Below, in pieces: positions 52,288 through 55,788 of a DNA stretch of 64,000 bases (position 1 is the first letter of the stretch; every line of letters begins with the position of its first letter). The position numbers were made by a program, and so were the translations under genes. The DNA is from Glycocaulis albus (GTDB lineage Bacteria; Pseudomonadota; Alphaproteobacteria; Caulobacterales; Maricaulaceae). The stretch lies in the NCBI RefSeq assembly GCF_014639075.1, contig NZ_BMFS01000003.1, forward strand, positions 124,001 to 188,000, given 5' to 3'. Below the pieces are notes generated by a model. That model had not been told where the DNA came from, searched no databases, and saw only the letters and a program-made list of their open reading frames with translations.

Positions 52288-52341
52288 CTACTCCGTCCCG
52301 TCATCCTCCGCGCCGGATTCATCTGTGAACTGGAGGAGATC
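52288..52341 (-). pseudogene. remnant of an XRE-type gene 3' end (C-terminal 17 codons plus stop)
   Basis: The minus strand reads DLLQFTDESGAEDDGTE and a TAG stop, matching in frame the end of the XRE gene at 52807-53040 (DLLQFTDEPGEDDDGTE, stop). Base identity is high over 54 nucleotides and stops abruptly at both sides. The remnant and the live copy flank the hypothetical gene at 52363-52761, as left by a duplication or an imperfect insertion. Confidence 0.7.
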
Positions 52342-52362: not shown

Positions 52363-52761
52363 TCACTCGAGTGGGCGAGATGAACACTCGAGTATTTCCA
52401 AGTCACACGTCACGGCCAGAGTCCTCTGCCGGAGGGTGTCTGGCGGGTAGAGCTCACCAACATACCCAATATTGACAACATACTGATCTTCGAAGCGGTA
52501 TATTCTGAATAATGCAGTCGCCAAGTCTGCATCTGCGGCGCTCGTTGCATCTTTGTATAAATCCCATGCGCGCAGAATGAGCAGCGCATGATCGCCCGGA
52601 ATCGCACAGAAAGCCTGAAACTGAAAATCTGCGCCAGGCTCACTGGTGAGCGGCCCGCAAGTTGGGGCCGCGCTCGACGGATCCTGATCCGTCTCCGGTT
52701 CTAGCCCACCTGCATTGGCTGCAGCGAGCAGGGCGAGGCTGAGAATGGCGATCATCTGCAT
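52363..52761 (-). CDS. hypothetical secreted protein
   Basis: 132 residues from the ATG at 52761, which starts a clear signal peptide (MQMIAILSLALLAAANAGG). The mature part has several cysteines (CGPLTSEPG, FCAIPGD, TCDLEILECS) that may form disulfides in the periplasm. No family is recognised. It is enclosed by the XRE remnant and the live XRE gene, so it may be an insertion into an XRE tandem. Its GC content is lower than that of the neighbours by eye. Confidence 0.6.
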   Translation of the reverse strand: MQMIAILSLALLAAANAGGLEPETDQDPSSAAPTCGPLTSEPGADFQFQAFCAIPGDHALLILRAWDLYKDATSAADADLATALFRIYRFEDQYVVNIGYVGELYPPDTLRQRTLAVTCDLEILECSSRPLE

Positions 52762-52806
52762 GCTTTCCGTCGTGGCACCCCTTGCACCCACTTTATCCTG
52801 CCACCC

Positions 52807-53040
52807 CTACTCCGTCCCGTCATCATCCTCGCCGGGTTCGTCGGTGAACTGGAGCAGGTCGCCGGGCTGGCAATCGAGCTCGCGGCACAGCGCCTCCAGC
52901 GTGGAAAAGCGCACGGCCTTGGCCTTGCCGGTCTTCAGGATGGAGAGATTGGCCATGGTGATGCCAACACGGTCGCACAGCTCGGTCAGCGACATGCGCC
53001 GTTCGAGAAGCATACGGTCGAGGGTGACGCGGATTGCCAT
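52807..53040 (-). CDS. XRE/YozG-type transcriptional regulator
   Basis: 77 residues. Nearly the whole chain is a Cro/CI helix-turn-helix: MSLTELCDRVGITMANLSIL and a following KTGKAKAVRFSTLEALCREL with CQPGDLLQF, typical of the YozG group. The acidic tail is EDDDGTE. It starts 12 bases after DUF2975 ends, which is the usual partner of such regulators. The two tandem TATCG-N5-CGATA operators near 53.97-54.01 kb are the likely binding sites. Confidence 0.88.
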   Translation of the reverse strand: MAIRVTLDRMLLERRMSLTELCDRVGITMANLSILKTGKAKAVRFSTLEALCRELDCQPGDLLQFTDEPGEDDDGTE

Positions 53041-53052
53041 GTCTCGCGCCCC

Positions 53053-53604
53053 CTAGATCGTCAGCTTCTGCTCGTCGCGCAGGCGCGTTCCCTCACGGAA
53101 CACTTCTGACAGGACGAGAAGCGCGATGACGGCGATCCAGGCGCCGATATTCAGCCCGAACTGGGGCTGGATGGACACGCCGCTTTCAACCGGGCGGCCA
53201 AACACAGTGAAGATGAGCGCGATAATGCCGTGCGCGCCATAGCGGATGATCTGGTAGATCGCGATGGCAATCGCGATGGCGCGCAGATGGCCGGCATTTT
53301 CCGGCACGAAGGGATCACCCTCAACGAGGGTGATGACGATGCGGCGCAGCCGGTCGGTGATGAACAAAATGGCAATGATCGCGGCCACGCCCAGCGGCAG
53401 CGCGATGACAAAATCAAGCTGAAGGAAGCGCACAAAGCTCTCGGGCAGGTCCGGGCCCATGCCCGTCACGCTGAATATCCCGAAAACCATGAGGGAGAGG
53501 GTGACGAGGCTGGCCAGGACCAGAAGGCCCCAGAGCACGATAATCGCCACATCGAGAAAAATTTTCAGAAGGGATGTCAAAAATCCCGGACTTAATGCAC
53601 GCAT
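53053..53604 (-). CDS. DUF2975 membrane protein
   Basis: 183 residues, four transmembrane helices (about 10-45, 55-85, 105-130, 145-165) with a conserved VEGDPFVPENAGHLRAIA loop typical of DUF2975. It ends with a short basic/acidic tail. It forms an operon with the XRE regulator downstream and the 38-residue gene 99 bases upstream. DUF2975-XRE pairs are widespread but uncharacterised; the membrane protein may sequester or control the regulator. Confidence 0.85.
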   Translation of the reverse strand: MRALSPGFLTSLLKIFLDVAIIVLWGLLVLASLVTLSLMVFGIFSVTGMGPDLPESFVRFLQLDFVIALPLGVAAIIAILFITDRLRRIVITLVEGDPFVPENAGHLRAIAIAIAIYQIIRYGAHGIIALIFTVFGRPVESGVSIQPQFGLNIGAWIAVIALLVLSEVFREGTRLRDEQKLTI

Positions 53605-53703
53605 CCCTGCCCCTTCTGTGACGTCACACCGGGCGCGATGCTGCCTCCAAGGGGGAAGAGGTCAGACGCACCCGGTGCCGTCATGCTGCCTCACGGCGCC
53701 GCC

Positions 53704-53820
53704 TTACGCGACAATCGGTGACAGCGCCGCAGCCATACCCGCTACAACCGTAGCGACCAGAACCACATTCATGATAGCCGCAAACGGAACGCGGCGGGTG
53801 TTGTTTTCGAGCCTGACCAT
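53704..53820 (-). CDS. small membrane peptide (38 aa) heading the DUF2975-XRE cassette
   Basis: A 38-residue frame on the minus strand, beginning MVRLENNTRRVPFAAI and then a hydrophobic stretch of about 20 residues with Ala/Val/Met (NVVLVATVVAGMAAAL), ending SPIVA. A textbook ribosome binding site, AAAGGAGACAAAG, lies directly before the ATG. The polar, basic start and single membrane helix predict a small inner-membrane protein. It is followed in the same direction by DUF2975 and XRE genes. No homologue is known to me; it may be a regulatory peptide for the membrane partner. Confidence 0.6.
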   Translation of the reverse strand: MVRLENNTRRVPFAAIMNVVLVATVVAGMAAALSPIVA

Positions 53821-53959
53821 CTTTGTCTCCTTTGAGGTCCAGTGTTATCGATCAACCTTCGGCCTTTGCTCCGGTCATGTGTTCCGCCGGGGCTTTTGCC
53901 GTGAGGCAGCGGGGTGTTCCCCTTGCCTCGAAAACACATCTAGCAAGGCTCTCATCGCT

Positions 53960-54010
53960 TTGCAACAAAAAAATATCGAAAAACGATATGAATTTTTCGA
54001 AAGGCGATAT
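53960..54010. promoter_or_regulatory. tandem XRE-type operators and divergent promoters between cassette and rdgB
   Basis: Two sites: ATATCG-AAAAA-CGATAT (53973-53989, perfect palindrome) and TTTCG-AAAGG-CGATA (53995-54009, one arm imperfect). Their CGATAT halves are exactly 21 bp apart, two helical turns. On the minus strand TTCGAA (53996-54001), 17 bases, CGATAT (53973-53978) could drive the cassette. On the plus strand TTGCAA (53960-53965), 18 bases, CGATAT (53984-53989) could drive rdgB. The second site ends 7 bases before the rdgB ATG. Confidence 0.6.
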
Positions 54011-54016
54011 GCGTAA

Positions 54017-54640
54017 ATGGATGTAGTAACCATAAAGCGGCTTTTCCGGGAGGCTCCGCTATGGATTCTGGCCAGCCATAATGCGGGCAAGATCAAGGAG
54101 ATAGCGGACCTTGTCGCGCCCTTCTCGATCACGGTCAGAGGGGCTGGCGAGATGGGTCTGGAGGAGCCGGAAGAGACTGAAAAAACTTTCTCCGGCAATG
54201 CGCTTTTGAAGGCGCGAGCCGCCGCCAGAGCCTCCGGAGCGGTCGCGCTGGCCGATGATTCCGGTCTGGAAGTGACCGCACTCGGCGGCGATCCGGGGGT
54301 TTATTCTGCCCGCTGGGCCGGACCGGAGAAGGATTTCGGTCTCGCCATGGAGGCGGTTGAGCAGAAACTCGCCGCCTCGGGGAGCGCAGACCGCTCGGCG
54401 CGCTTTGTGTGTGTACTGGCGCTGGTTCATCCCGGCGGCGCCGAGCTGGTGTTCGAAGGCGAGGTGAAGGGCGATCTGGTCTGGCCGCCACGCGGGGAGC
54501 GGGGCTTTGGCTATGATCCGGTGTTTGTTGCCAGGGGCGAAACCCGCACCTTTGCCGAGATGAATGCAGCAGAGAAAAAGGCGCTGAGCCATCGCGCCGC
54601 CGCTTTCGGCAAGCTGACAGACACGGTGTTTGGCGCGTGA
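54017..54640 (+). CDS. rdgB: XTP/dITP pyrophosphatase RdgB (HAM1 family)
   Basis: 207 residues. The ASHNAGK phosphate-binding motif, ADDSGLEVTALGGDPGVYSARWAG (in parts) and the C-terminal GERGFGYDPVF and SHRAAAF segments define the family. It removes non-canonical purine nucleotides (ITP, XTP) before incorporation. The start codon is unusually close to the operator pair of the divergent XRE cassette, so its promoter may be affected by that repressor. The hemW start overlaps its stop (GTGA). Confidence 0.96.
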   Translation: MDVVTIKRLFREAPLWILASHNAGKIKEIADLVAPFSITVRGAGEMGLEEPEETEKTFSGNALLKARAAARASGAVALADDSGLEVTALGGDPGVYSARWAGPEKDFGLAMEAVEQKLAASGSADRSARFVCVLALVHPGGAELVFEGEVKGDLVWPPRGERGFGYDPVFVARGETRTFAEMNAAEKKALSHRAAAFGKLTDTVFGA

Positions 54641-55788
54641 GCATATCTTCGCCGGCCGCACTCGGGCTTTACATTCACTGGCCCTATTGCGCGCGCATTT
54701 GCCCGTATTGCGATTTCAATGTCTACAAGGCCAGGGGCGCAGACAGCGCCCCTCTGGTTGAGGCCCTGCTGGCCGACATGGCGCGCTGGCGGGAGGTGAC
54801 GGGTCCGCGCGCCCTCACAAGCGTGCATTTTGGCGGCGGCACCCCATCGCTGATGGAGGCGCGCGATATCGCCCGCGTGCTGGAAACGGCAGAAACCTTG
54901 TGGGGGCTGGAGCCGGACGCGGAGCTGGGGCTGGAGGCCAACCCGGCCGAGCGCGCGCGTCTGGCAGATATCGTGAGCGCCGGGATCAACCGGCTCTCGG
55001 TCGGCGTGCAATCGCTCGACGATGCGGCGCTGGCGCGGCTGGGACGCGATCACGATGCCCGCGCCGGTCTCGATGCGCTGGAGATTGCCCGGTCTCTGGT
55101 GGCGCGCGTCTCGGCTGACCTCATCTATGCGCGGCACGGCCAGAGCCTGAAAGACTGGGAAGGCGAGCTTGCGGCCGTGCTGGCGCTGGGGGTTGATCAT
55201 TTATCGGCCTATCAGCTGACGATCGAGGACGGCACGGCGTTTGCCCGGCAGGTAAAGCGCGGCACGCTTGTACCGCCGCCCGAAGAGCTGGCCGCAGACA
55301 TGTTCGAGCTGACGCAAGGATTGACCGGCGCAGCCGGGCTGGAGGCTTACGAGATTTCCAACCATGCGCGCGGGGACGCACACCGCTCGCGCCACAACCG
55401 GCTCTACTGGACGGGCGGGGACTGGATCGGGATCGGGCCCGGCGCGCATGGACGAATCGCATCGCATGCCGCTGGCGGGCGCATCGCCCATGCCGCGCCC
55501 CTGCGCCCGGCCGATTACATCGCCGCCAGCGGACAGCCGCTGTGCGGCCTTGAGCGGCTATCCGCGCTGGAGGAAGCGCAGGAGCGCGTGCTGATGGGCC
55601 TGCGTATCATTGATGGGCTGGACCGGACCCGCCTGCGTAGCCTGACAGGCCATGACATTGACGCGAACGCCGCACAGGCATTGCACGATGACGGCCTGAT
55701 CGCCATGGACGCAGCGCGCGTGCGCCTCGCGCAGCAGGGCAGGCTCTATGCCGATCGCATCGCCACCATGCTGGCGCCGGACGGCTGA
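54637..55788 (+). CDS. hemW: radical SAM heme chaperone HemW
   Basis: 383 residues beginning with GTG. The cluster motif is CxxxCxxC with C18, C22 and C25 (YCARICPYC). HFGGGTPSLM, SVGVQSLDD and SRHNRLYW are HemN/HemW landmarks. It lacks the residues needed for coproporphyrinogen oxidation, so it is HemW, which inserts heme into respiratory enzymes. The four-base overlap with rdgB indicates one operon. Confidence 0.93.
   Translation: MSISSPAALGLYIHWPYCARICPYCDFNVYKARGADSAPLVEALLADMARWREVTGPRALTSVHFGGGTPSLMEARDIARVLETAETLWGLEPDAELGLEANPAERARLADIVSAGINRLSVGVQSLDDAALARLGRDHDARAGLDALEIARSLVARVSADLIYARHGQSLKDWEGELAAVLALGVDHLSAYQLTIEDGTAFARQVKRGTLVPPPEELAADMFELTQGLTGAAGLEAYEISNHARGDAHRSRHNRLYWTGGDWIGIGPGAHGRIASHAAGGRIAHAAPLRPADYIAASGQPLCGLERLSALEEAQERVLMGLRIIDGLDRTRLRSLTGHDIDANAAQALHDDGLIAMDAARVRLAQQGRLYADRIATMLAPDG

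Follow-up and report, generated by a model that had tools for sequence, protein, structure and literature searches.

A three-gene cassette of Glycocaulis albus, encoding a membrane peptide of 38 amino acids (aa), a DUF2975 membrane protein and a small XRE-type regulator, lies behind palindromic operator sites that recur in the same genome before genes for envelope and membrane proteins, and we propose with moderate confidence that the cassette is a membrane-signalled repressor module acting over a small envelope regulon. The cassette was found in a window of 64,000 nucleotides (the whole stretch of DNA that was analysed; positions 124,001 to 188,000 of contig NZ_BMFS01000003.1, assembly GCF_014639075.1) and was followed through 199 genomes of the order, the window's own genome counted, and into the Sphingomonadales.

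The initial annotation had placed a 38-codon frame with a ribosome binding site, DUF2975 and XRE together on one strand, and this was confirmed by reading of the open reading frames and by Pfam. Running away from rdgB on the minus strand, the order is the peptide gene (53704..53820), with the Shine-Dalgarno sequence AAGGAG before it (53827..53832, minus strand, read in the sequence), then the DUF2975 gene (53053..53604; PF11188, E 2.8e-11, 43.9 bits against a cut-off of 27) and then the XRE gene (52807..53040; HTH_26, PF13443, E 1.7e-22, 79.9 bits against a cut-off of 22), so that the gathering score is exceeded by both of the latter proteins. DUF2975 was present in 174 of the 199 genomes, and among the 130 loci of these that were inspected closely, one per genome, 129 had an XRE gene within 60 bases of DUF2975 (in the locus numbering, L001 and L002 duplicate L003, and L033-L035 duplicate the genomes of L006, L007 and L019). 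All 16 Sphingomonadales loci (L061, L062, L064, L067-L079) also carried the DUF2975 and XRE genes, there with stop and start codons overlapping by one base. DUF2975 alone, XRE pairing aside, was detected in 5 of 14 well-known control genomes from several phyla. Judged from its sequences, the three-gene cassette is real and old.

Two sites stand upstream of the cassette. Operator 1 (53973..53989) is a perfect ATATCG-N5-CGATAT palindrome, and operator 2 (53994..54010), 21 bp from it and in register, is a degenerate copy with 2 mismatches in the 12 fixed positions. When 2 mismatches were allowed the window held 3 matches, against an average of 1.13 in shuffled sequence (12 of 100 shuffles reached 3), and the sites are significant because they are conserved across loci and not from the statistics of the window. 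Among 44 loci from seven near genera, a site with at most 1 mismatch was found in 41 (38 of them perfect) and a 21-bp pair in 36 (up to 3 mismatches per member), bearing out the earlier description of two sites at this register. The Sphingomonadales had a site with at most 2 mismatches 5' of the cassette in 16 of 16 loci, and rdgB was not found in the roughly 10 kb around each of these; the operator thus accompanies XRE whether or not rdgB is near, and across two orders the palindrome tracks the XRE gene, not rdgB. The exact palindrome occurred 108 times, in 82 of the 199 genomes, against 9 occurrences of its reversed control, and was present in 78 of the 174 genomes with DUF2975 versus 4 of the 25 without (Fisher p 0.008, indicative in view of the kinship of the genomes, for which it is uncorrected, and of motif variation from group to group).

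The pattern WTATCG-N5-CGATAW gave exactly four sites in each of six genomes of the genus and none for the reversed control, where about 0.13 per genome would be expected by chance at the base composition of the window. One of the four lies at the cassette, two before a gene for an exported bactofilin-domain protein and one before a small membrane protein gene resembling superinfection immunity genes. The bactofilin-type sites, at G000:C2:172193-172227 in the window's genome (G000), form a tandem pair at an 18-bp register before the gene for a 283-aa exported protein (Bactofilin, 31.8 bits against a cut-off of 27.9), and the next protein, of 418 aa, also has a Bactofilin match (30.5 bits). Bactofilin-type genes matched in 50 of the 199 genomes; 26 of the 30 such loci listed had a relaxed-pattern site within 400 bp 5' of the match, and the relaxed pattern occurred 47 times in these loci versus 0 for its reverse, counts that are based on this relaxed pattern and on partial matches. 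The product of the immunity-like gene is a membrane protein of 63 aa and of Imm_superinfect type (66.9 bits, with the cut-off at 27.9). In G000 the site of this gene is at C2:49448, and the gene was behind its site in all five genus loci inspected (L267 by eye) and in two of three loci of another genus. At 2 mismatches the window's own genome gave 75 matches and the reversed control 40; such matches are largely chance and were excluded as regulon members.

Other genes stand behind the sites in family f2, which holds Henriciella- and Hyphomonas-like genomes (the latter label, for genus g20, is based on near-identical DUF2975 proteins). A PspB-like gene was behind a site in six genomes (the two proteins scanned gave 23.2 and 20.1 bits with NCBIfam pspB and so fell short of its cut-off, 51.7), toastrack genes in three (DUF2807 at 139.7 and 137.9 bits in the two scanned, the third by eye), S49 peptidases in two, S9-type peptidases in two (at 23.9 and 20.7 bits against a cut-off of 22.6) and, in one, a YbjQ gene; two further sites stand before an unnamed protein, the scanned part of which matched nothing in Pfam. 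In G119 the PspA and PspC genes are side by side (C1:568321-569629), apart from the PspB-like gene with its site at C1:487726. In family f4 (genus g31) an exact site recurs beside a gene for a small exported protein in three genomes (L204, L205, L206), and the frame on the other side of it is presumably DUF1289-like. Single sites in distant genomes at L201, L203, L211 and L213 look like chance hits and were set aside.

The XRE protein of the window has 77 aa, with HTH_26 as the sole Pfam domain over its cut-off, and its profile matches one solved sequence, 3tyr/3tys; an NCBIfam match to VanU (27.4 bits) was far under the cut-off of 150. Its core, ANLSILKTGKAKA[IV]RFSTL, is invariant in the 16 XRE proteins from both orders that were aligned (A6; L062, L075 and L078, with E to A at the end of the core, and L066, with one K to R, were left out), and over the 146 loci of the two orders 102 have it exactly. 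We regard binding of the palindrome by this protein as very probable. Since the XRE proteins listed measure only 68-85 aa, the signal should come from a partner. The DUF2975 protein of the window (183 aa) was modelled by AlphaFold2 with four long helices (mean predicted local distance difference test score 86.8), and a Foldseek search of the model against the PDB returned no match at E 0.001 or better. Across 30 aligned DUF2975 proteins (A5) a GDPFVPEN loop is invariant and the C-terminal tail is conserved; by charge and hydrophobicity, read by eye, both may be cytosolic and could hold the XRE protein there.

On this basis the XRE protein would bind ATATCG-N5-CGATAT and repress the cassette itself in most families, together with the exported bactofilin-domain gene and the small membrane gene resembling superinfection immunity genes; the targets in Henriciella- and Hyphomonas-like genomes would instead be the PspB-like, toastrack, S49-peptidase and other genes. 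That the XRE protein represses such a regulon is predicted with good confidence. Perturbation of the membrane would lead DUF2975 to anchor or titrate the XRE protein by means of the conserved loop and C-terminal tail, and so to derepression, and we lean towards such an antagonism of XRE by DUF2975. The earlier proposal that the membrane proteins relay an envelope state to XRE keeps part of its force here, in that the other site-bearing genes of the near genus are envelope or membrane genes, which fits it. The peptide, made from the same operon, might bind DUF2975 in the membrane and set the threshold of the response or reset it, although action of the peptide through DUF2975 can be suggested only tentatively.

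The peptide itself is better established than its role. In the seven near genera, each of the 44 loci has, in the gap from operator to DUF2975, a frame that combines a single hydrophobic segment with a Shine-Dalgarno-like motif; small membrane frames were also found in 10 of 15 f3 loci, 6 of 6 f5 loci and all 16 Sphingomonadales loci; these carrier counts are conditional on hydrophobicity and a Shine-Dalgarno motif, which the search required. In 19 chosen near-genus peptides (A1), M1, V2, N18, L21 and V25 are invariant. The ratio of non-synonymous to synonymous polymorphism (pN/pS) was 0.32, 0.41, 0.34, 0.37, 0.59 and 0.47 in six order-level groups, with shifted frames at 0.92 to 3.80, and 0.29, 0.40 and 0.21 in three Sphingomonadales groups (10 of the 16 loci), with shifted frames at 0.99 to 4.04. 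The order-level sets were restricted to the commonest peptide length (6 of 6 loci in g1, 13 of 14 in g5, 5 of 7 in g8, 12 of 13 in g10, 5 of 5 in f3 g21, and 5 of 5 in f5 g23 and g35), with g11, g14, g15, f5 g36 and the remaining f3 genera outside them. As read from these alignments, the 38-aa peptide is a conserved coding gene under purifying selection. Pfam gave no match to it, and an NCBIfam match to a NADH-quinone reductase subunit was rejected (17.8 bits against a cut-off of 329). A reading of it as a bare signal peptide was weighed on composition only and was not adopted. In L009 and L166 the small membrane peptide is present in two tandem copies 5' of DUF2975.

Several findings weigh against the repressor module as set out, and they concern the reach of the regulon, the distribution of the peptide and the position of the near-genus sites. 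A looser pattern, part of whose sites were inspected, gave 31 forward sites over 12 more distant genomes and 7 sites in the control, so that some of the distant sites will be chance. No qualifying gene was behind the site in 4 of 20 stretches around sites (L296, L302, L306, L311). Each of four f3 genomes had a single site, which in three of them lies at the cassette and in the fourth lies away from it, so that no regulon is seen there; in six Sphingomonadales genomes the strict pattern gave 7 sites in five genomes against 2 in the control, all 7 falling by coordinates within the cassette region. The four genomes that have an exact site and no DUF2975, and the 44 of 146 loci in which the XRE core varies, point the same way.

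For the peptide, the filter returned none in 20 f2 loci and none in 11 f4 loci, though DUF2975-XRE is kept there, and in ten other genera of the window's own family (f1) it flagged 2 of 34 loci, the pair again being kept; the two flagged loci, both in g12, are unlike the peptide and were excluded from the carrier count. Conservation of the peptide, which had been set as a test beforehand, thus held in the seven near genera and not in every family, and because two families and ten f1 genera keep the pair alone, the peptide would have no essential role in the module. These absences favour a stand-alone, autoregulated DUF2975-XRE pair, alongside a small membrane protein, the peptide, that has no connection with the pair beyond a common promoter, as does the comparison of peptide-group profiles by hhalign, where A1 matched A2, A3 and A4 with probabilities of 4, 5 and 10% and convincing homology was not found; the groups are best treated as analogous until shown otherwise. 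Four separate groups nevertheless have small single-helix frames in this place between operator and DUF2975, selection was seen wherever it was tested, and we judge the stand-alone pair to be the less probable account, while still the strongest competitor of the repressor module.

The near-genus promoter raises another alternative, in which the XRE protein is an activator restrained by DUF2975 in the style of a LytTR Regulatory System and switches on its own operon when DUF2975 is inactive. All promoter elements were read by eye. In the window a putative cassette -35, TTGCAA (53960..53965, minus strand), lies 7 bp from operator 1, with a putative -10, TAGATG (53937..53942, minus strand), after a 17-bp spacer; the near-genus alignment has TTG 6 or 7 bp past the site, and the inner site of the 21-bp pair ends 6-7 bp upstream of the putative -35, a position that looks more fitting for activation, or for regulating rdgB. 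It recalls the layout in Streptococcus mutans, where 9-bp repeats 11-12 bp apart are described 4-11 bp 5' of the -35 (PMC6193735). On the putative promoters, this placement just 5' of the operon -35 is seen in the near genera and not in the Sphingomonadales and others. In most of the Sphingomonadales loci shown, the sites cover TTGACA or TTGACG and TATTGA with a 17-bp spacer; in f2, f4 and f5 they overlap a candidate -10; at the immunity-like gene the site is just past the -10, and at the bactofilin-type gene it follows a conserved CGCTTYC-like string and precedes the start codon. By eye, the positions outside the near-genus cassette are those of a repressor, and most of the geometry fits repression. 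With the Sphingomonadales, immunity-like and bactofilin-type sites so placed, an activator seems unlikely to us.

Two further accounts of the peptide fare worse. A short hydrophobic single helix behind an operator could be a membrane-toxic peptide of type I-like systems, with XRE and DUF2975 as its control, but the locus is fixed beside rdgB across the order instead of being patchy and mobile, and purifying selection was seen in every group tested, so that a toxin is very improbable. It is just as improbable that the frame, as the first past the putative promoter and with a conserved 5' hairpin in one group, is a translated leader governing DUF2975 translation with little weight on its amino-acid sequence, given that selection acts at the amino-acid level (pN/pS of 0.32-0.59 against 0.92 or more in shifted frames).

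In the cassette 5' regions of g8 and g10 there is a short hairpin, GGACGG...CCGTCC, with compensating changes and near the expected transcript start. A string GGTTGGTC, or TTGGTC-like, is recurrent in the 5' untranslated parts of near-genus cassettes (about 53840 in the window) and in many loci also comes directly after the operator of the bactofilin-type gene (L195, 5186-5191). TTGGTC within L195 alone was not above chance frequency; the string is possibly a shared post-transcriptional element. Rfam gave no match over 52700-54200 up to E 0.1.

On the far side of the operators is rdgB (54017..54640, plus strand; a Ham1-type nucleotide-pool pyrophosphatase, Ham1p_like, PF01725, E 2e-61), the start codon of which is separated from operator 2 by six bases and which is the divergent neighbour of the cassette in 125 of 130 order loci. 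Towards rdgB, the near-genus sites occupy its expected promoter or 5' region, and the same two sites would probably damp rdgB too if the XRE protein acts as proposed; co-regulation of rdgB in the near genera is quite possible, if short of what we would favour. The earlier claim of shared control with rdgB is therefore plausible for site placement in the near genera and does not appear to extend generally beyond them, with Sphingomonadales operators keeping their place where rdgB is not in the locus and a 196-197-codon gene, glutathione S-transferase-like by eye, intervening between site and rdgB in L120 and L143. Its extension to the hemW-type radical SAM gene (54637..55788, plus strand; PF04055, Radical_SAM, and PF06969, HemN_C) found no support: the only link is its overlap with the end of rdgB in this strain, and on present sequence the gene is a neighbour that nothing ties to the module. 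Beyond the other end of the cassette, a 54-bp copy of the 3' end of the XRE gene (52288-52341, minus strand) is identical at 47 of 54 positions and scored 40, where the best of 200 shuffles reached 19; between the two copies of this end lies a secreted-looking frame of 129-142 aa (52363-52752/52791). In L005, lolA is closely downstream of XRE.

In the SdpRI/SdpC system of Bacillus subtilis a repressor is sequestered by a membrane protein and the signal is a small peptide; its logic is like that proposed here, while the protein families differ and no secreted toxin is known in the present case. The LytTR Regulatory Systems HdrRM and BrsRM pair a soluble DNA-binding regulator with a membrane protein (PMC6193735), and the cassette resembles them, as described there, in having such a pair and, in the near genera, sites just 5' of the putative -35 at a 21-bp register; it differs in that the regulator is XRE and not LytTR, the membrane protein DUF2975 and not DUF3021 or DUF2154, the sites palindromes and the geometry mostly that of a repressor. 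A Pfam scan found no LytTR match in the regulator and neither DUF3021 nor DUF2154 in the membrane protein (only PF11188), and by these domain assignments the module is not a LytTR Regulatory System. In Caulobacter crescentus, HigX is described as a membrane-associated regulator of envelope genes common to many Alphaproteobacteria (PMC13384398); it is one transmembrane transcription factor where the present module is split into an XRE/DUF2975 pair, and the main text of that report contains none of the terms DUF, XRE and rdgB. The PspB-like and toastrack genes behind f2 sites are a likeness to the phage-shock and toastrack envelope stress network as described (PMC11237479), and the points of difference are the absence of a PspA or PspC match in the window's genome (G000) and the scores of the scanned PspB-like proteins below the family cut-offs. 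Of four genomes searched, PspA was found in three and PspC in two, the own genome having neither, and from its gene content the module is not a Psp system.

Pairs of DUF2975 with HTH_26 XRE proteins consist of the same two adjacent families; the present locus brings in an operator, a candidate regulon and a third, small gene. It is conceivable, and for now speculative, that these make up a three-part module of the Alphaproteobacteria set apart from two-component, extracytoplasmic function (ECF) and LytTR systems: a repressor of helix-turn-helix domain only, a four-helix membrane anti-repressor and a lineage-specific gating micropeptide, acting on a Psp-like envelope regulon of bactofilin-type, toastrack, PspB-like, S49 peptidase and small membrane proteins, with rdgB drawn in where it adjoins the operator. 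DUF2975 is widespread, and a search of the open-access literature found, by title or abstract, nothing on the function of DUF2975 (PF11188) or yozG/yoaS, which is one reason that the module matters. In Glycocaulis albus the candidate envelope-response system sits in a genome showing no PspA or PspC, and with a concrete operator, a candidate four-site regulon shared unchanged by six genomes, and a small gene that is easily missed, the DUF2975-XRE pair becomes a testable envelope-response system.

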